Both the position numbers and the translations under genes were made by a program. This document shows, piece after piece, positions 81 through 18,447 of a stretch of 45,108 nucleotides of DNA. Below the pieces are notes generated by a model. The model was not told where the DNA came from and made no database searches. It was given only the letters and a program-made list of their open reading frames with translations. The DNA lies in the IMG/VR virus record IMGVR_UViG_3300048834_000362, positions 1-45,108 of that record. One strand, given 5' to 3'. The first letter of the stretch is position 1; the number at the start of each line of letters is the position of its first letter. Source of the stretch: a virus.

Positions 81-833
81 TTGCATGACCCCCATGTTGT
101 TCTCGACCAAGGTTTCATCCGACTCATCCGCGTCGATGGTACAGACCTCGATGTGGTCAACGCGGCCCGCGTCTCCTTCCTCAAAGAATCCGAGTGGGAC
201 GAAATCCGCATCGAACCCGACACCATCAGCGACGGCGACACCACAGAGAAGCGACTCAAGGACTCAGACGCTCGACTGATCCAGTACCTCGCTCGCCACA
301 ACCACTGGACTCCATTCGCTCAAGTCGGCGCTCACCTCCACATCAAGATGCCTCTCTTCGTGGCCCGTCAGTGGTTCAAGCACCAAGTAGGCGTCGTCAT
401 CAACGAAGTCTCCCGTCGCTACGTCGACGAAACACCCGACATTCACATTCCCTCCTTCTGGCGTGCCCGACCCGATGGCTCCATCAAACAGGGCTCCGGC
501 GACCGCCTACAGTCTGGGGGCGATAGAGCATCCACTGCCTATTTATCCGCCACTTTAAAGGCGATTGAGACGTACGAACGGCTGCTGGAGTTGGGTGTCT
601 GTCCAGAGCAGGCCCGCATGGTCCTTCCCCAATCCATGTTCACTGAGTTTCGCACCACCGCATCCCTCGCCGCTCTCGCCCGAATCCACCACCTCCGCTC
701 CTCTACCCACGCCCAACTGGAGATTCGTGAGTACGCCTCCGCCCTCTGCGACCTCATCGACCCCCACTTCCCCGTCTCATGGAAGGCACTGACAGCCAAT
801 TATGGAACTGCCAATCCTCCCATCCCGTCCTGA
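81..833 (+). CDS. thyX: Flavin-dependent thymidylate synthase ThyX
   Basis: Makes dTMP from dUMP using FAD, NADPH and methylene-tetrahydrofolate, in the cytoplasm. The signature is a phage variant of RHRxxSxNExSxRY: RQW-FKHQ-VGVVINEVSRRY. Downstream is the usual end of the family (LPQSMFTEF, then a SLAALARIHHLR...AQLEIREYA segment that contacts flavin and dUMP). The start is uncertain: a GGAGA at 70-74 stands six bases before a TTG at 81, giving about 250 residues, normal for ThyX. The frame stays open to the window edge, with another TTG at 36, so an upstream start is possible. The 3' end overlaps the polymerase gene by 32 bases, suggesting a shared transcript. With RNR and a deaminase-like gene downstream it completes a dNTP supply set. 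Family identity is clear; only the start is in doubt. Confidence 0.95.
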   Translation: MHDPHVVLDQGFIRLIRVDGTDLDVVNAARVSFLKESEWDEIRIEPDTISDGDTTEKRLKDSDARLIQYLARHNHWTPFAQVGAHLHIKMPLFVARQWFKHQVGVVINEVSRRYVDETPDIHIPSFWRARPDGSIKQGSGDRLQSGGDRASTAYLSATLKAIETYERLLELGVCPEQARMVLPQSMFTEFRTTASLAALARIHHLRSSTHAQLEIREYASALCDLIDPHFPVSWKALTANYGTANPPIPS

Positions 834-3800
834 CTGCACCGACTGCAACCTCCACCTGCTCGGCTGCAAGAATCGGGGCCTCGCCACCATTCCCTTCCAC
901 ACCCACCCCGACCATCGGGCCCCGGTGGTCGTGGTCGTGGGAAGCCACCCATCCTTCGAGGAAGACGCAAACGCCCGACCCTTCATCGGCTCAACCGGCG
1001 AATACCTCAAGAACGTCTACCTCAACGGCTCGGGCCTCTCCTCCCTCTCCCACATCTACCTCACCAACTCCATCCGCTGCTTCCCCGTGGGCGTCCGCAA
1101 TCCCGCCTTCCGCAAGAACGAACTGACCGCCTGCCTCGCCCACCTCACCGCCGACCTCCTCTCCATCGAGAAGGCACACCCCAACTCCCCCCTATTCCTC
1201 CTCCTCACCGGCGGCACCCCCGCCCGCCAAATCCTCAACTCATCCACCACCGACGCCTTCAAACTCCAAGGCCAAGAAGTCTCCTTCGGCGGCTCCCCCT
1301 GGCGAGTCTTCTCCACCTACAACCCCGCCTACCTCGCCCCTTGGAACAAGCCAGCCGCCCTCCACGCCGTCACCGAACACCTAACCCGTCTCATCGACAC
1401 CATCGAGAACGGCTCCTCCCCCTCTCACGACCCCTCCATCTCCCGCCCTCGCTTCCCCCTCCCCTCCGACTCCTCCATCCTCTGCGTCGACATCGAAACC
1501 TACGGCGCCTGTCGCAAGACCATCTTCAACCAAGAACTGCCCGACCAAACGGTCTTCCATCCGGCCCGTTCCATCTTCACCGACTCCGTCAACCCTCGCG
1601 ATCTCATCCAAACCGTCTCCATCACCCTCTGCGAGATGCCGTCCTCCCTCTCCTCCCTCTCCCCCATCACCACCCTCGTCTTCAAACCTCGCAACCTCTC
1701 CCACCTCTCCATGCTCAAAGCGTGGCTCTCTCACGCCACCCTCCTCATCGGCCACTACCTCCAGTTCGACCTCCTCTACCTTCACTACGCCAAAATGATT
1801 TCAAGCGACCGCGAGGTCCAACTGGTCGACCTGTCTGTGGTGAACTATCTGGAGAATGAGGCGAGAGAGGAGAGGTCGTTGAAGGATCTGGGCCCGTTGT
1901 TGGGCACCCATTCGTACCACCGGACAATCAAGGACGGGAAGTTCTACTCACCCAACGACCCTGAAATCATCGAGTACAACGCCCTCGACACTGAGGCCAC
2001 CGTTCTCGCCCTCGCGAAATTGGCCGGTCGTCTCGAGTCCCGCCCAGATACCGACAAACTTTCCCCTTACTGCCTCTCCTTCTACGCCGACACCATCTGG
2101 ACTTGTGTGGACATGGCCCTCAACGGCATCGCCATGGACGCCCCCTCCATCGAACGCATTGAGTTCATGAATCTCCGCCAGATGAAGTGGGCCCGCAAAC
2201 GAGCCCGACGGATGGGCCTCCTCCTCGAAGGCAAGGGTTCCGTCCGCTCGAAAGACCGCTTCATGGCCAAACTCCTCGCGGTCGCTAAAACCCATCCGGA
2301 CTTCAATGGGGGGCAGGTGGAATTGACGGAGGCGGCGAAGAAGGTGTCCGCAAAGGACGCCAACCGCAACTACCTCTCTACCCTCCTCCCCGAAGGCCAC
2401 CGACTGGAGAAGTTGACTCACTACTTCGACCTGTACCAAAAGGCGTCGAAGTTGGTCTCCTCCTACACCTTCCCCCTCCTTCGTCACTCTCCCAAGAACG
2501 AGAAGAAACAGGCCTCCCGCCTCATCCCCATCCACGTCGACGGTGAGGTGGCCACAATCGCCTACCCCACATGGTACCCCATCCCAGGCGCCATCAAGGA
2601 CGGCGAAGGCTCCGAAGGCGGTACGTTGCAGGCCCGCATCACCTGCAAGGGTCCGGCCATCCAAACTCTCCCCTACTCCATCAAGTCGACCATCACGTCC
2701 CGGTGGTTGGGAGGCTCGATGTTCATGTTCGACCTCTCGCAGATCGAACTCCGCGTCGCCGGTCTTCTCTCCGGCGAACCCTCCCTCATCGAGAACTACC
2801 AGAGGGGCGGTGACCTCCACACCCAACGAACCATCCAGATGTTCGGCGAGGACATCGTTAAGGACCCGTACTTCAAGTCGCAGTACAGACAGGTCGGGAA
2901 GGCCCAACCTGTTGATGAACCTGTCATGACCCCAGAAGGCCCGAAGGCTATCGGTAGTTTGGAAGTGGGCGACAAGATCTACGGGTCAAACGGGATCACA
3001 TCCGTTACTGGAATTTACCCGCAAGGGGTTAAACCAATCTACAAGATCTCCTTCTACGACGGGTCGTGGACTCGCTGCTGTGGTGAACACCTCTGGAAGG
3101 TAACTGACACACAAGGCAAGGAAGAGGTGGTCTCGTTGGACACCCTCAGAACTCGCGATCTTTCGTGGCAAAAGGGTTGGCGATACGAGATTCCCGTAGG
3201 GCAGCCCTTCGAGACCTCTGAGTTGGATCTGGACATCCCGCCGTACACGTTAGGAGCCTTTTTGGGTGACGGATCTATAACTTGTGGAACACCCATCCTT
3301 GTCAACGATGAAAAGGACAACGAAATCGTTGAACGTATCGCCGAGGAATTGGATGGTTGGGGGTTAGTGATCGAGAGGAAGTTCCGTCATGCCGTCTGTT
3401 TCTCGATGGGGACACGGGGCAGAACCAAAATCAACCCTTTGAAGGGTGCTTTGGGTTCGTTGGATTGTTGGGGAAAGAACGCTCACTCTAAAAGAATCCC
3501 CTTGAGATACTTGGCTGCTAGCGTCCCCCAACGGGTAGATCTCCTTCGTGGACTCATGGATACAGACGGAACCATCACCCCACGAGGATCGGCCTCCTAC
3601 ACGACTGTCTCTAAGCAACTTGCCTTAGATGTTTGCGAACTAGTCCGTAGTCTGGGCGGAGTCGCAAAAGTCCGCAAGCGTCCAACCTCTCACACTTATC
3701 GAGGGGTGAAAAAGGAAGGCTTTGCTTGGTGTGTGACCATTAGGACTCCAATGAATTGCTTCCATTTGAAGAGGAAAGCCGATAGGTGGTCTCCCTTCAG

Positions 3801-4458
3801 AATGTTCAGAAAGATCGTGGGAATCGAACCAGCGGGTGAGTCAGAATGCGTTTGCATCTCTGTAGATGCTGGCGACCGTTTGTATGCCACCCGCGACTAC
3901 CTCCTGACCCACAACACCATCAACTTCGCCGACCTCTTCCTCTCCTCGCCCGGAACCATGCGAGACACTGTCATGGGAAAGTTGGGCATAGACCTGCCCC
4001 TCTCCTTCTTTGAGGGGGTGGCCAACTCCCGCCACAAGGTTCGTCCCCGTCTCATGGATTGGCAGGCCCAACTGTTGATGGAGGCGAAGACCAAGAACAT
4101 TCTCGAGTTGCCCTTCGTCGGGGTGAGTCGGTGGTTTCCCGGCCATGCACTGGACATCGAGAAAGTCAAGTCTACAGTCGTCAACTTCCCCGTCCAATCG
4201 ACCGCCGCCCTCACCCTCCTCAACATTCAGCACCACGTTCGCCACCTCCTTCGGGAAAGGAAACTCCGGTCCCTCCAAGTCCTCAACATCTACGACTGTG
4301 TGGGCATTGACGTGTATCCGGGGGAGGAGCAGGCAGTCAAAGACCTCTTCCATGATTGTGTGGTTGAGGTGCAGAAGAACGACTATTGGTCGAAAGTGCA
4401 GACTCACTACGGCAACGAAGTGCCGATTGAGTACGAGTTGTCGGAAAAGAAACGATGA
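802..4458 (+). CDS. Uracil-DNA glycosylase / family A DNA polymerase fusion, intein-interrupted
   Basis: Replicative DNA polymerase, 1218 residues, about 880 after intein removal. Residues 1-200 resemble family 4 UDG: four cysteines for a 4Fe-4S cluster (C12, C15, C93, C111), a GSHPSFEED loop where GEAPGxxED is usual, and TYNPAYL where the family has a catalytic His-Pro; here it is N174. A 3'-5' exonuclease follows (D230/E232, HYLQFD at 318-323, YNALD with D396). The polymerase has motif A DLSQIELR (D644), O-helix RQVGK (R696, K700) continuing after the intein as TINFADLF, with Phe at the E. coli 762 position, and a motif C reading YDC (1164-1166) rather than the common HDE or HDS. Start ATG lies inside the thyX end; the stop overlaps the next ATG. 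Two copies of the dispersed repeat (1803, 2274) are in frame. The polymerase and exonuclease calls are firm; UDG activity is uncertain. Confidence 0.93.
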   Translation: MELPILPSRPDCTDCNLHLLGCKNRGLATIPFHTHPDHRAPVVVVVGSHPSFEEDANARPFIGSTGEYLKNVYLNGSGLSSLSHIYLTNSIRCFPVGVRNPAFRKNELTACLAHLTADLLSIEKAHPNSPLFLLLTGGTPARQILNSSTTDAFKLQGQEVSFGGSPWRVFSTYNPAYLAPWNKPAALHAVTEHLTRLIDTIENGSSPSHDPSISRPRFPLPSDSSILCVDIETYGACRKTIFNQELPDQTVFHPARSIFTDSVNPRDLIQTVSITLCEMPSSLSSLSPITTLVFKPRNLSHLSMLKAWLSHATLLIGHYLQFDLLYLHYAKMISSDREVQLVDLSVVNYLENEAREERSLKDLGPLLGTHSYHRTIKDGKFYSPNDPEIIEYNALDTEATVLALAKLAGRLESRPDTDKLSPYCLSFYADTIWTCVDMALNGIAMDAPSIERIEFMNLRQMKWARKRARRMGLLLEGKGSVRSKDRFMAKLLAVAKTHPDFNGGQVELTEAAKKVSAKDANRNYLSTLLPEGHRLEKLTHYFDLYQKASKLVSSYTFPLLRHSPKNEKKQASRLIPIHVDGEVATIAYPTWYPIPGAIKDGEGSEGGTLQARITCKGPAIQTLPYSIKSTITSRWLGGSMFMFDLSQIELRVAGLLSGEPSLIENYQRGGDLHTQRTIQMFGEDIVKDPYFKSQYRQVGKAQPVDEPVMTPEGPKAIGSLEVGDKIYGSNGITSVTGIYPQGVKPIYKISFYDGSWTRCCGEHLWKVTDTQGKEEVVSLDTLRTRDLSWQKGWRYEIPVGQPFETSELDLDIPPYTLGAFLGDGSITCGTPILVNDEKDNEIVERIAEELDGWGLVIERKFRHAVCFSMGTRGRTKINPLKGALGSLDCWGKNAHSKRIPLRYLAASVPQRVDLLRGLMDTDGTITPRGSASYTTVSKQLALDVCELVRSLGGVAKVRKRPTSHTYRGVKKEGFAWCVTIRTPMNCFHLKRKADRWSPFRMFRKIVGIEPAGESECVCISVDAGDRLYATRDYLLTHNTINFADLFLSSPGTMRDTVMGKLGIDLPLSFFEGVANSRHKVRPRLMDWQAQLLMEAKTKNILELPFVGVSRWFPGHALDIEKVKSTVVNFPVQSTAALTLLNIQHHVRHLLRERKLRSLQVLNIYDCVGIDVYPGEEQAVKDLFHDCVVEVQKNDYWSKVQTHYGNEVPIEYELSEKKR
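1803..1818 (+). repeat. Dispersed repeat copy 1
   Basis: AAGCGACCGCGAGGTC, in the polymerase gene, read in frame as SDREV between the exonuclease motifs. Confidence 0.95.
2274..2286 (-). repeat. Dispersed repeat copy 2
   Basis: Reverse 13-mer AGCGACCGCGAGG, without the following T, in the polymerase gene, read as LLAVAK. Lies 456 bases from copy 1. Confidence 0.85.
2902..3915 (+). other. Class 3 (WCT-type) intein with LAGLIDADG homing endonuclease, in the DNA polymerase
   Basis: In-frame 338-residue insertion (residues 701-1038), directly after the invariant O-helix lysine K700 and before T1039. It begins with Ala, so lacks the usual Cys/Ser nucleophile, and ends T-H-N before +1 Thr. Block B is EHLW (H763, W765), block F has Cys at the usual Asp position (C1018 in CVCISV), and block G has T1036. 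That is the noncontiguous Trp-Cys-Thr triplet of class 3 inteins, in which the block F Cys starts splicing. Two dodecapeptide motifs, LGAFLGDGS and LLRGLMDTDG, indicate a LAGLIDADG endonuclease. Base and codon use is visibly more AT-rich, with many AGA/AGG and GAT/GTT codons, unlike the C-ending codons of the flanks, which suggests recent arrival. Confidence 0.93.
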
Positions 4459-14400: not shown

Positions 14401-14822
14401 ACAACTGCAACTGCAAATGCAACTTCGAGAAGTGGGCATACGACAACCTCCACCCCTCCTGCTTCAAAACCCCCTTCAAGTACGAAATCCCCCCCGTTGA
14501 CCCCCTCCGAGGCACGGGCCGCACCAACCGCATGATCTTCCGAGCCCTCGGCTCAGAGAGCAATCTCGTCACGCTCTTCTTCAAGACGCAAGCCGAAGCC
14601 GACCACCACGGCAGAAGAACATTCGACCTGTTGAAGTACACACTCAAACTGCGTGTTGAGGGCAACCACTCGAAGATTTTCGTCTACTCGCCAAGTGGAC
14701 TTATAAGCAAGACTCTCATGTTCAAGCCTCACTACAACCTCCAACGGGCGATTGCTGGAGTCCAAAACTTCACTTACTTCGTGGACCATGCCTGTGAGGA
14801 GAACCTCAATGAGCAAGTATGA
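14397..14822 (+). CDS. Unknown protein with Cys-rich N-terminus
   Basis: A 141-residue protein starting MNNCNCKCNFEKW, where alternating Cys residues could bind a metal. A GTGRTNRMIFRAL segment at about residues 40-52 recalls the GRTxRM motifs of small phage proteins but is not a full Walker A. A beta strand pair (HSKIFVYSPSGL) follows. The start overlaps the upstream stop (ATGA), and the end overlaps the next gene by 14 bases. Function unknown. Confidence 0.6.
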   Translation: MNNCNCKCNFEKWAYDNLHPSCFKTPFKYEIPPVDPLRGTGRTNRMIFRALGSESNLVTLFFKTQAEADHHGRRTFDLLKYTLKLRVEGNHSKIFVYSPSGLISKTLMFKPHYNLQRAIAGVQNFTYFVDHACEENLNEQV

Positions 14823-15288
14823 GAATGGGGAGATCGAAGTGACCGCTGGCGGAGGCAAGCACTCCCGCATCAACACGGCACCCTCCCTTCTCCCCCCAAT
14901 CGCCGTCCTCGAAATCGGTCGCATCCTCAAAGCGGGCGCCGAGAAGTACGGCGTCGACAACTGGCGCAACATCCCAGTTCGCGACCACCTCGACCATGCC
15001 CTCAAGCACATCTTCGAGAACCTCGCCAACAACGACCCAGCCGAACTCATCAACGCCTCCTGTCGCCTCCTTTTCGCCGTCGAACTCACGCAACTAAGCG
15101 ACCGCGAGGTTAGGGGTTCGGTTGAGCATCCTCGGAGGAGCGGAGAGACGGAGTACGAGTACAACATGAGGATGGGTCGACTGAGGGCGGCTCAACAACT
15201 GATCAACGACGAACAAGCACTCGCACTTGAGACGGCTCGGATGGAGAAGGAGGCTTATGAAACTGATCGACGGGATCTTTCGCAATAA
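14809..15288 (+). CDS. DUF5664-like dATP/dGTP diphosphohydrolase-type protein
   Basis: A 159-residue protein whose first 100 residues match the phage DUF5664 pattern: KYGVDNWRNIPVRDHLDHAL, then KHIFENL and AELINASCRLLFAVEL, an all-alpha arrangement related to MazG-like pyrophosphohydrolases, with His and Glu residues suitable for Mg2+ binding. Such proteins are thought to hydrolyse dNTPs or house-clean the pool. GAGGAG at 14795-14800 sets the start at 14809. The dispersed repeat (15096-15111) is translated as SDREV right at the domain end, followed by a helical, charged extension. It precedes RNR, consistent with nucleotide-pool control. No purZ-like gene is seen, so there is no evidence of a diaminopurine genome. 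Confidence 0.7.
   Translation: MSKYENGEIEVTAGGGKHSRINTAPSLLPPIAVLEIGRILKAGAEKYGVDNWRNIPVRDHLDHALKHIFENLANNDPAELINASCRLLFAVELTQLSDREVRGSVEHPRRSGETEYEYNMRMGRLRAAQQLINDEQALALETARMEKEAYETDRRDLSQ
15096..15111 (+). repeat. Dispersed repeat copy 5
   Basis: AAGCGACCGCGAGGTT, extended by AGGGGTTC on the right and T on the left to a 25-base identity with the copy at 40491. Read as SDREV in the DUF5664-like gene. Confidence 0.95.
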
Positions 15289-17884
15289 AATCGGACGCGA
15301 CATCTTCTACGCCAAGTACAGCCACGAAGGTTGTGAGACGTGGGAGAAACTGGCCCACACCCTCACGTGGGAAGTGTGCGGTGACCTCCTCCCCCGAGAC
15401 ACCGTCGAAGCGATCGAACAGATGATCGCCCAGATGAAGTTCATCCCTGGGGGTCGCTACCTCTACTATGCTGGCCGCGAAGCGAAGTTCTACAACAACT
15501 GCGCCCTCGGTCGCTGCGAGGAGGACAGCCGAGAAGACTGGTCCCGCCTCACCTACAAAACCACCTCGTGGCTCATGACCGGCATGGGCCTAGGCTTCGA
15601 CTACTCAATCTACAGACCTCGCGGTCGCTCACTCTCGCGTACGGGCGGAGTCGCCTCCGGACCCCTCCCCGCGATGGGGATGGTCAACGAGATTGGTCGA
15701 CGCGTCATGCAGGGCGGCTCCCGTCGCTCCGCCATCTACGCCTCCCTCGACCGCGAACACGACGATGTGATGGAGTTCATGGCTGAGAAGGATTGGGACA
15801 ACCGCAAGGTCGCAGGCACCGACAAGTCGTACGGCGACCTCAAGCGTGCCGACTTCTTCTTCCCCTGCCCACTCGACAACACCAACGTCTCTGTCAACTA
15901 CTCCGACAAGTGGCTCTCCCTTCCCGATCCCGCCTCCGACGAGGTGTTCCTCAAGAACTGCGAGTACGCCCTTCGCAACGGGGAGCCCGGCTTCTCGTTC
16001 AACTTCGGCGACAAGGCGAGGGAGACGCTCCGCAACGCCCCGGTCGCTGGCTCCACCCACGTCTATACCTCTGAGGGCATCCGTCAGGTGATCGACATCG
16101 TCAACATCCCGGTCACCCTCTGGACTGGCAAGCAGTGGGCCTCCGACGTGGTGTTCCGTTGCACGAAGGAGAACACCCCCACCATCTCCGTCAACATGAC
16201 TGGTGGACGCCAAATCGTCTGCGACCCCAACCACGAGTTCCTGGTCGAACGCTGGTCAGGTAAGGGCAAGTCTCGAACGCTCGACACGATCGAGAGGGTT
16301 GCCGCGAAGGATCTCCAAGAGGACGACATTCTTCACGTCTCCCTCCCCACCTACGAGTCGCCAAACACCTCCGACTACATGTACGTCCTCGGTTATGCCT
16401 ACGGAGATGGATCCTTCTCGAAGGAGGGTCGCTGTGAAATCACGTTCTGCTCGCCGGAGTCTAAGGAAATCGCTAGGGGACTAGCCGCCTTCTTCAACAC
16501 CTACGGAACAGTGAATTGGGACGACTCTCGCGGTTATGCGAGGGTGTACTTCTCGAAGGACGTGTTCGGCTACCCCCGCTCGAAGGAGACGATCGGAGAC
16601 GAGGCGTTGAATGAGTCCTTCATCGCAGGACTGTTCGACGCGGACGGCAACTACGACGCCAGCCAGAACGCGATCCGTCTTTGCTCCAAGCACGAAGGAT
16701 TCCTCCATGACATTCGACGAGCCTTGGAGTGCATGGGCATCCTCTCCAATGTCTCCAAGAACGGCTCGTCCACCTACGGAGGCTCTCAGGTCTACCAGTT
16801 GGTGATCTGCCGTGAGTACAACAACCTCTTCCGTTCACTCATCCCCACCCGTCGACTCACCCCAATCGAGCACGACGCCTATCGCAAGTCTTCCGTTCGA
16901 GTCCTCTCTGTCAGCGAGGGTGAGACGCAGGATGTGTTCTGCTGTGACGTGAAGGTTGACGAACACACGTTCATGGCCGAAGGAGTCATCATCTCCAACT
17001 GCTGCGAGGTGACCTCCGAGGACGACAGCGACATCTGCAACCTCGGATCCCTCAACCTCTCTCGCATCGAGACGCTGGAGGAGTTCACCCAATGCGTCGA
17101 ACTGGCCACCGCCTTCCTCATCTGCGGCACCCTTAAGGCCCAGTTGCCCACCCAGAAGATGTACATCGTTCGTGACAAGAACCGTCGTCTGGGCCTGGGC
17201 CTCATGGGGGTCCACGAGTGGCTCGTCACTCGCGGCTACCGCTACCAGATGAACGACGAGTTGCGTTCGTGGATGGAGGTCTACCGAGATGGCTCCCGCA
17301 AAGCCGCTGATGAATACGCCGCCCGCCTATCGATCAGCCGCCCCGTCGCGTGCCGAGCGATCGCCCCCACAGGCACCATCGGTATGCTCGCCGGAACGAC
17401 CACAGGCATCGAACCGATCTTCGCGGTCTCCTTCAAGCGCATCTACCTCAAGAACAACGTCTACCACTACCAGTATGTCGTCGAATCAGCCGCTCGAGAA
17501 ATGATGGCCACGACAGGCTGCCAACCCGACGACATCGAAACGGCTCTGTCCCTCGCCTCCGACCCCGAACGACGCATCTCATTCCAAGCGGACATGCAGG
17601 ACTACGTCGACATGGCCATCTCATCCACCATCAACATGCCAGCGTGGGGCACCCCCTTCAATAGCAGAATGCGAGTCCCGCACTTCGCGAGCATCCTCGC
17701 CAAGTACGCCCCTCGTCTCCGTGGCATGACCGTTTACCCTGACGCAGCACGCGGCGGACAACCCCTCACCCCAGTCCCCTACAAAGAGGCCCTCAAGAAT
17801 GTCGGAAAAGAATTCACCGAAACCATCATCCAGCACTCTGACATCTGTGACATCTCAGGGAAGGGAGGCCACTGCGGATCCTAA
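15257..17884 (+). CDS. nrdJ: Class II (adenosylcobalamin-dependent) ribonucleotide reductase, intein-interrupted
   Basis: Reduces ribonucleotides to deoxyribonucleotides using a thiyl radical. Of 875 residues about 555 remain after removing the intein. Visible motifs are NNCALG (C82, one of the redox Cys pair), FSFNFGDKARETLRNA, then after the intein CCEVTSEDDSDICNLGSLNL, and APTGTIGMLAGTTTGIEPIF. Joining the exteins gives the finger-loop N-x-C-x-E (N260, C582, E584) with C582 as the radical cysteine. The C-terminus ends GKGGHCGS, short compared with many relatives. AAGGAGG (15247-15253) sets the start at ATG 15257, overlapping the nucleotide-hydrolase gene. No NrdB-like subunit is present, consistent with a B12-dependent enzyme. 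A repeat copy codes RPRGRS (about residues 119-124). Confidence 0.93.
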   Translation: MKLIDGIFRNKIGRDIFYAKYSHEGCETWEKLAHTLTWEVCGDLLPRDTVEAIEQMIAQMKFIPGGRYLYYAGREAKFYNNCALGRCEEDSREDWSRLTYKTTSWLMTGMGLGFDYSIYRPRGRSLSRTGGVASGPLPAMGMVNEIGRRVMQGGSRRSAIYASLDREHDDVMEFMAEKDWDNRKVAGTDKSYGDLKRADFFFPCPLDNTNVSVNYSDKWLSLPDPASDEVFLKNCEYALRNGEPGFSFNFGDKARETLRNAPVAGSTHVYTSEGIRQVIDIVNIPVTLWTGKQWASDVVFRCTKENTPTISVNMTGGRQIVCDPNHEFLVERWSGKGKSRTLDTIERVAAKDLQEDDILHVSLPTYESPNTSDYMYVLGYAYGDGSFSKEGRCEITFCSPESKEIARGLAAFFNTYGTVNWDDSRGYARVYFSKDVFGYPRSKETIGDEALNESFIAGLFDADGNYDASQNAIRLCSKHEGFLHDIRRALECMGILSNVSKNGSSTYGGSQVYQLVICREYNNLFRSLIPTRRLTPIEHDAYRKSSVRVLSVSEGETQDVFCCDVKVDEHTFMAEGVIISNCCEVTSEDDSDICNLGSLNLSRIETLEEFTQCVELATAFLICGTLKAQLPTQKMYIVRDKNRRLGLGLMGVHEWLVTRGYRYQMNDELRSWMEVYRDGSRKAADEYAARLSISRPVACRAIAPTGTIGMLAGTTTGIEPIFAVSFKRIYLKNNVYHYQYVVESAAREMMATTGCQPDDIETALSLASDPERRISFQADMQDYVDMAISSTINMPAWGTPFNSRMRVPHFASILAKYAPRLRGMTVYPDAARGGQPLTPVPYKEALKNVGKEFTETIIQHSDICDISGKGGHCGS
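15616..15629 (-). repeat. Dispersed repeat copy 6
   Basis: Reverse AGCGACCGCGAGGT in the RNR gene, read as RPRGRS. Confidence 0.95.
16040..16999 (+). other. Intein with LAGLIDADG endonuclease and Pro at position 1, in RNR
   Basis: A 320-residue in-frame insertion (residues 262-581) between finger-loop N260-A261 and the radical Cys C582. It starts PVAGSTHVYTSEG, aligning with the usual C-x-x-G-x-T block A but with Pro instead of Cys. Block B is DPNHEFLV (H326), dodecapeptides are LGYAYGDGS and FIAGLFDADGN, block F is VFCCDVKVDEHTF, and the end is ISN before +1 Cys, lacking the penultimate His. Codon use matches the flanks, suggesting long residence. A class-3-like route through C562 or C563 is conceivable, though the Trp and Thr of the WCT set are missing. 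Confidence 0.85.
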
Positions 17885-18368
17885 CGAGATTCACATCCAA
17901 GAAATCATCCTCTCCACTTACCACGTAGCGAGTAGGTCGCCTTGCCTCACCACTCAGAACGGGGCGAGGGTGGGGATCATGGCCGGGTCCTCGTGGGGGT
18001 GGAACCACGCAGGCACCCCACACACCTATAACGACGAGGATGGGGTCGTCCACGCCGAAGTTCACGCCATCCTCCGCTGGGCCAGCGAACGAAGGGAGGT
18101 AGCCCCTAACATGTACGCTGTGTGGGCTTGCTGCTCCCATTGTGCCCAGTGCGTCGTCGAATCGGGTATTCGCACCCTCTACCGCTGTGCTGCCGCCATG
18201 CGTCGCGAGCATCCCAAATGGGCCGACACCATCATCAGGGGAGACAAGATCCTCCTTGACTCAGGCGTAAAAATCATCGAAGTCGAACCTCATCCACAAT
18301 GGGGCTACCCAACCCTCCGTTTCCGTGAACGCCTGTGGAACCCCATCGACGGTTACCTAGACTCGTGA
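17799..18368 (+). CDS. Cytidine/dCMP deaminase-like protein
   Basis: A zinc-dependent deaminase fold: VHAEVHAIL (His-Ala-Glu) and CCSHCAQCVVESGI (Cys-x-x-Cys) near residues 80-117 supply the zinc ligands and catalytic Glu. Deamination of dCMP would give dUMP for ThyX, completing the pathway from RNR. The true start is unclear: ATG 17799 lies 86 bases inside the RNR gene, after AAAGAGG, while homologous sequence seems to begin only near NEIHIQEIIL after the RNR stop. GTG 17847 or a rare start after AAGGGAGG (17861-17868) is also possible. tRNA-Arg follows six bases after the stop. Family good, substrate inferred. Confidence 0.8.
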   Translation: MSEKNSPKPSSSTLTSVTSQGREATADPNEIHIQEIILSTYHVASRSPCLTTQNGARVGIMAGSSWGWNHAGTPHTYNDEDGVVHAEVHAILRWASERREVAPNMYAVWACCSHCAQCVVESGIRTLYRCAAAMRREHPKWADTIIRGDKILLDSGVKIIEVEPHPQWGYPTLRFRERLWNPIDGYLDS

Positions 18369-18374
18369 CTTGAC

Positions 18375-18447
18375 GCTCGGGTAACTCAATGGATAGAGTA
18401 GGGGTTTTCTAAACCTCCGGTTGTGGGTTCGAGTCCCACCCCGAGCA
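18375..18447 (+). tRNA. tRNA-Arg (anticodon TCT)
   Basis: Complete cloverleaf: acceptor GCTCGGG/CCCGAGC plus discriminator A, D-arm ACTC-AATGGATA-GAGT, anticodon arm GGGGT-TTTCTAA-ACCTC, T-arm GTGGG-TTCGAGT-CCCAC. The seven-base loop places TCT at positions 34-36, decoding AGA. CCA is not encoded. It closes the rightward arm. The most AGA/AGG-rich coding stretch that I can see is the polymerase intein. Confidence 0.93.

Follow-up and report, generated by a model that had tools for sequence, protein, structure and literature searches.

A phage ribonucleotide reductase intein with proline at position 1 and a candidate class 3-like start from an internal cysteine

The ribonucleotide reductase (RNR) gene of the phage analysed here carries an intein that begins with proline, and comparison with its relatives suggests that it is a working, mobile intein that would splice without an N-terminal nucleophile, the first step being taken by the cysteine at position 4 of block F (F:4), as in class 3 inteins; we put the probability of this reading at about 0.7. 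That the intein is functional appears almost certain, because 31 other distinct phage inserts have the same odd design.

The host gene and the insertion site

The window, by which we mean the whole stretch of DNA analysed, is an IMG/VR virus record of 45,108 bases. Its open reading frames and their translation show an intein-bearing RNR of the AdoCbl type (NrdJ) with the following parts and surroundings:

15257 to 17884, plus strand: RNR open reading frame, intein included, with its ATG at 15257 and the stop codon ending at 17884
15257 to 16039, plus strand: N-extein, the N-terminal part of a class II (NrdJ-type) RNR, last residues LRNA
16034 to 16039, plus strand: N260-A261, the extein residues before the intein
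17000 to 17002, plus strand: +1 Cys (C582), proposed second splicing nucleophile and, once ligated, the RNR radical cysteine
17000 to 17884, plus strand: C-extein, the remainder of the RNR, its further Cys positions (those of the C-terminal CGS among them) in common with three aligned intein-less phage RNRs
18375 to 18447: tRNA-Arg(TCT), downstream of the dCMP deaminase-like gene

The N-extein matches Pfam Ribonuc_red_lgC and NCBIfam NrdJ_Z, and the spliced extein sequence is 60% identical to the RNR of CRP-3. Cysteines 82, 262, 274 and 553 (spliced numbering) are intact and common to all three intein-less relatives; the one at position 262 is the radical cysteine, as is established for RNRs. 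The earlier note had placed an intein on this residue, and the translation agrees with it, every residue that it named standing at the number it gave.

The intein-less relatives CRP-3, Tunturi_3 and pSt2308 read uninterrupted LRNACTEV (LRNACTEVTS), and the intein-bearing loci read LRNA, an insert running from Pro to Asn, and then C(T/C/G)E, that is CTEVTS or near variants after the Asn. The empty site therefore puts the insertion exactly between Ala and the radical Cys, and residue 1 is truly Pro. An intein start at V2 or further in was considered and rejected, since the boundary is set by the empty site and the residues close to it include no conserved nucleophile.

Two further observations concern the gene and its neighbourhood. 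The residue that follows the radical cysteine (17003 to 17005 in the window) is Thr in all three aligned intein-less relatives, and among 29 intein-bearing RNRs it is Cys instead of Thr in six and Gly in one. Positions 14752 to 18447 form a nucleotide-metabolism cluster around the RNR, in the order dATP/dGTP diphosphohydrolase-like protein, RNR, dCMP deaminase-like protein and the tRNA gene.

Anatomy of the intein

The insert has the following parts, all on the plus strand:

16040 to 16999, plus strand: intein of 320 aa, Pro1 to Asn320, HINT splicing domain with LAGLIDADG homing endonuclease
16040 to 16042, plus strand: intein residue 1, Pro (Pro262 of the ORF), codon CCG, no nucleophile
16223 to 16240, plus strand: block B, D62-P-N-H65-E-F67, with Asp and not Thr at B:7, His at B:10, and Phe and not Trp at B:12
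16388 to 16417, plus strand: endonuclease block C, LGYAYGDGSF, assigned by sequence to the LAGLIDADG domain
16619 to 16648, plus strand: endonuclease block E, FIAGLFDADG, assigned by sequence (PF14528)
16940 to 16942, plus strand: Cys301, block F:4 (ORF C562), proposed initiating nucleophile
16943 to 16945, plus strand: Cys302, block F:5 (ORF C563), by comparison not essential
16994 to 16999, plus strand: block G, Ser319-Asn320 (ORF S580-N581), with penultimate Ser and not His

The intein opens with PVAGSTHV and closes with VIISN directly ahead of the Cys at 17000. Block B reads CDPNHEF, F67 of the intein being F328 of the ORF (16238 to 16240), block F reads DVFCCDVKVDEHTF, and G:5 is Ile318 and not Thr; the first-position proline, the penultimate serine, the phenylalanine F328 and the missing block G threonine had all been read correctly before. 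Pfam gives a weak match to Intein_splicing and a match to LAGLIDADG_3 (PF14528) at E 1e-14, and the motifs GYAYGDGSF and GLFDADG, with both catalytic acids present, mark a LAGLIDADG homing endonuclease. PDB sequence searches returned matches chiefly to the endonuclease part. AlphaFold predicts the HINT fold with confidence both for the window intein (pLDDT 87.7), whose best PDB matches are full-length inteins, and for the endonuclease-free relative L003 (pLDDT 88.8), which comes about as near to class 1 as to class 3 DnaB inteins. The empty site LRNACTEV, the predicted fold (pLDDT 88-89) and the intact RNR exteins together identify the insert as an intein.

A family of inteins with proline at position 1

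Relatives were collected by scanning viral contigs with the intein and then with growing alignments, every locus being read, and the phage contigs yielded 32 distinct inteins at the same RNR site, the window intein included. Pairwise identity among those aligned is mostly 35-63%, and across this range Pro1, Cys F:4, the terminal Asn and Cys+1 are invariant (32/32), the last being the Cys that intein-less RNRs also have in NAC(T)E. A survey for Pro1 had been proposed in the earlier note, and Pro1 is present in every member of this family. The codons vary freely: Pro1 is CCA in 12, CCT in 11 and CCG in 9, all CCN with mixed third bases, and Cys F:4 is TGT in 16 and TGC in 16. Invariant residues with free synonymous codons across 32 inteins are not what decay or sequencing error could produce, and the idea that position 1 is a misread Cys was discarded. 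Residue 1 is under selection for Pro, though it cannot be a nucleophile.

Around these fixed points, the 29 tabulated inteins have Phe at B:12 throughout, Asp (24), Glu (4) or Ser (1) at B:7, Ile, Val or Leu at G:5, and Ser (27) or Ala (2) as the penultimate residue G:6; His B:10 is invariant in the table that compares the group with same-site class 1 inteins. Position F:5, that of Cys302, is Cys in 18, Ala in 10 and Thr in one; Cys302 being replaceable, F:4 is the only conserved internal cysteine of block F, and C563 was dropped as a candidate nucleophile because relatives have Ala or Thr there.

Nine of the 32 are mini-inteins that lack the endonuclease (130-167 aa in the seven measured) and keep all the splicing residues, although selection has no endonuclease to act on in them. 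The closest relative of the window intein is 96% identical with the same key residues, and dN/dS between the two (0.020/0.306, about 0.07) indicates that the window intein is under purifying selection.

Two scans of genome contigs found no family member in cellular genomes, and among the sequenced phages of INPHARED the same-site RNR matches that were read are Cys1 inteins, with no Pro1 member. In an RNR scan with patterns including uninterrupted NACTEVT, the best 80 genes align with the intein-less query over its full length, a search that is blind to transitional Cys1 inteins in the same NrdJ clade. The open-access literature found does not describe the Pro1 RNR-site family, and members may sit unremarked among the 1701 published class 3 inteins.

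Comparison with known splicing classes

Class 1 splicing calls for Cys, Ser or Thr at position 1; with Pro there in 32 of 32, class 1 chemistry is impossible, as the earlier note had maintained from a single case. The family also departs from class 2 in sequence, its host being an RNR, its residue 1 Pro, its B:7 Asp, Glu or Ser, and its F:4 Cys. Known class 2 inteins are KlbA orthologs only, archaeal, with Ala1 and Ser G:6, and require Thr B:7 and Asp F:4 (PMC4031507); they resemble the Pro1 family in lacking Cys1 and in having Ser G:6 and Cys+1.

By the broad class 3 sequence definition, no Cys at position 1 together with a Cys at F:4 (C2:4) (PMC7891396), the Pro1 inteins belong to class 3. 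The strict class 3 triplet, Trp B:12, Cys F:4 and Thr G:5 (WCT), is absent, all tabulated members having Phe B:12, Cys F:4 and Ile, Val or Leu G:5, and deviations from W and T are rare among 1701 class 3 inteins (6.1% and 4.6%; PMC7891396). WCT inteins such as those of Bethlehem DnaB, M. smegmatis DnaBi1, mycobacteriophage TerL and the phage's own PolA are like the Pro1 family in having no nucleophile at position 1 (Pro in some), Cys F:4, His B:10 and a terminal Asn, and DnaBi1 also in reading DxxH instead of TxxH in block B (PMC6195587). Unlike them, the Pro1 family lacks Trp B:12 and Thr G:5, has penultimate Ser or Ala and not His, has Cys+1 where Ser or Thr is usual, and lies on a different branch of the trees.

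The PolA intein of the same phage and its host gene have these positions:

802 to 4458, plus strand: UDG-PolA fusion ORF, a family A DNA polymerase preceded by a fused uracil-DNA-glycosylase-like (UDG-like) domain
2908 to 3915, plus strand: PolA intein, WCT class 3 with LAGLIDADG endonuclease, inside ORF 802 to 4458

Its signature is Pro1, HLW, a block F Cys, LTHN and Thr+1. Pro1 also accompanies the WCT residues in the TerL inteins of the mycobacteriophages Petp2012 and Phrappuccino, and functional Pro1 inteins had already been described according to the phiCbK report, whose authors cite the Bethlehem DnaB paper (PMC3556154). The suggestion that Pro1 marks a new kind of start does not survive these class 3 examples, the PolA intein included; Pro1 alone is not new, and the novelty is the combination of no Cys1 with neither the W nor the T of the triplet.

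Two further systems bear comparison, and the first shows that loss of W or T can be tolerated. The split class 3 intein of AceL NrdHF, in an RNR-related gene, uses the class 3 mechanism although B:12 is Met (an MCT triplet) and both C-terminal His are missing, and its T144A variant still splices, about tenfold more slowly (PMC7891396); it differs from the Pro1 family in having Ala1, in keeping Thr G:5, in being split, and in its protein and site (PMC7891396). The TerL inteins of phiCbK-like Caulobacter phages share Pro1, Phe B:12, Cys F:4 and a hydrophobic G:5 with the Pro1 family and differ from it by Ser+1, His or Lys at G:6, a site in the TerL P-loop and a distant sequence (PMC3556154). In our material, three such Caulobacter phage TerL loci (L058, positions 1660-2682; L059; L069) have Pro1, Phe B:12, Cys F:4 and Val G:5; they are a second Cys1-less group without the WCT triplet, placed near class 3 in trees.

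Origin of the Pro1 family

Outside the family, the closest matches in sequence are Cys1 inteins that occupy this RNR site in phages of Staphylococcus, Corynebacterium, Vibrio (ICP1), Acinetobacter, Rheinheimera and others. These class 1 inteins share the site before the radical Cys and are closest in sequence over both the splicing domain and the endonuclease; they differ in having Cys1 and Thr B:7 (each in all 14 read), mostly a Gly-Gln or Gly-Asn end, and Thr G:5 in 12 of the 14. Position B:7 thus tracks residue 1, Thr going with Cys1 (14/14) and Asp or Glu, rarely Ser, with Pro1. Cys F:4 is present in 13 of the 14, the exception being P1201 with Asp. With the full-length window intein as query, endonuclease included, Cys1 RNR inteins match at E down to about 1e-18 to 5e-19; the Caulobacter TerL inteins match no better than E 3-9, and a single comparison with the PolA intein of this phage gives E 0.049. 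In a separate observation, an RNR-like gene of Microcoleus phage My-WqHQDG (L184) carries a Cys1 mini-intein whose block F has a CC pair (VYCCNV) like that of the window intein, possibly an intermediate type.

The splicing-domain trees recover the Pro1 family as a clade (97-100) and the WCT inteins as a separate one (100/99), and all four trees join the Pro1 family to the Cys1 RNR-site inteins as its sister group, with support of 99/98, 100/98, 99/96 and 100/96, the last from a tree with the class-defining columns removed whose bootstrap is not fully settled. A tree of full-length sequences sets each of three groups apart and, having only three, has no say on which two are nearest. Cys1 was therefore probably lost, as far as these alignments indicate, independently of WCT class 3 and from same-site inteins nearly all of which already had Cys F:4.

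The family might instead belong to the WCT class 3 lineage by descent, after a transfer to the RNR site and the loss of W and T; recombination or long branches would then account for its likeness to the class 1 inteins of that site. Forcing the Pro1 family together with WCT class 3 costs 15-22 log units, which is not significant (p-AU 0.14-0.21), so that this union is not rejected and an independent origin is favoured. Pro1 and the absence of Thr B:7 are also common to the two groups, the same phage has a Pro1 WCT intein in PolA, and the Caulobacter TerL inteins combine Pro1 with F-C-V. Such a history nevertheless seems doubtful to us, as every splicing-domain tree places the family with the Cys1 inteins of its own site, even without the class-defining columns, and the full-length search favours those inteins over the TerL and PolA ones. 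The fuller proposal, that Cys1-less block F splicing arose a second time, within the class 1 RNR-site lineage, from an ancestral Cys F:4 and with an active site that lacks W and T and has the B:7 acid beside His B:10, we regard as evenly balanced.

A possible route of splicing

In established class 3 splicing, attack of Cys F:4 on the upstream junction leads to transfer of the N-extein to the +1 residue, cyclisation of Asn and an acyl shift (PMC5222942), and by analogy these steps fit the Pro1 intein. C301 (F:4), helped by His B:10, would attack the Ala(-1)-Pro1 bond and hold the N-extein as a thioester; the N-extein would be transferred to Cys+1; cyclisation of Asn320 would free the intein, block F His309 possibly substituting for the missing penultimate His; and an S-to-N acyl shift would ligate the exteins. 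The B:7 acid may offset the missing Thr G:5. Since the +1 Cys becomes the radical cysteine by ligation, the RNR would be inactive before splicing. Class 3 inteins have their initiating cysteine at F:4, and against a class 3-like reading stands the absence of W, T and the penultimate His alike. The earlier proposal that C562 and C563 may act as in class 3 remains the best explanation for C562, invariant in 32 of 32, and fails for C563, where 11 of the 29 tabulated inteins carry Ala or Thr.

The presence of Cys F:4 in 13 of the 14 same-site class 1 inteins means that it may owe some of its conservation to inheritance or to another role, and since in those relatives Cys1 is the expected first nucleophile, the same fact lends something to a class 2-like route, in which Cys+1 would attack the Ala-Pro1 bond directly as in KlbA and Cys F:4 would only assist, in place of the class 2 Asp. 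Cys+1 is invariant, and class 2 inteins too lack Cys1 and all have Ser G:6 (PMC4031507), the residue found in 27 of 29 here. This route is nonetheless unlikely, more so than a WCT ancestry, given that every class 2 intein on record is a KlbA intein with Ala1 that depends on Thr B:7 and Asp F:4 (PMC4031507), whereas the Pro1 family has an acidic B:7 and always Cys F:4, and that Asp F:4, tolerated in a same-site class 1 intein (P1201), occurs in none of the 32. The other outcome raised by the earlier note, a degenerate intein that does not splice and leaves the RNR blocked, would agree with Pro1, the lost penultimate His and the absent WCT triplet and is highly improbable in the face of 32 conserved relatives, nine of them endonuclease-free mini-inteins, a dN/dS of about 0.07 indicating purifying selection, and intact RNR residues.

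Implications

A structural study argued that class 3 cannot derive directly from class 1, in part from the failure of a WCT graft on a class 1 intein (PMC7664689). A second origin at the RNR site, if true, would be at odds with a single rise of class 3-type inteins that could not have started directly from class 1. The Pro1 clade beside the Cys1 clade at one insertion site provides a natural test of this origin, Cys F:4 being common to both and the exchanges being limited to Cys1, Thr B:7 and Thr G:5. The family also supplies nine compact mini-inteins with the unusual junction Ala/Pro...Ser-Asn/Cys, and a setting in which splicing itself makes the radical cysteine of an enzyme. Splicing without Cys1, by way of an internal cysteine, may have evolved more than once.
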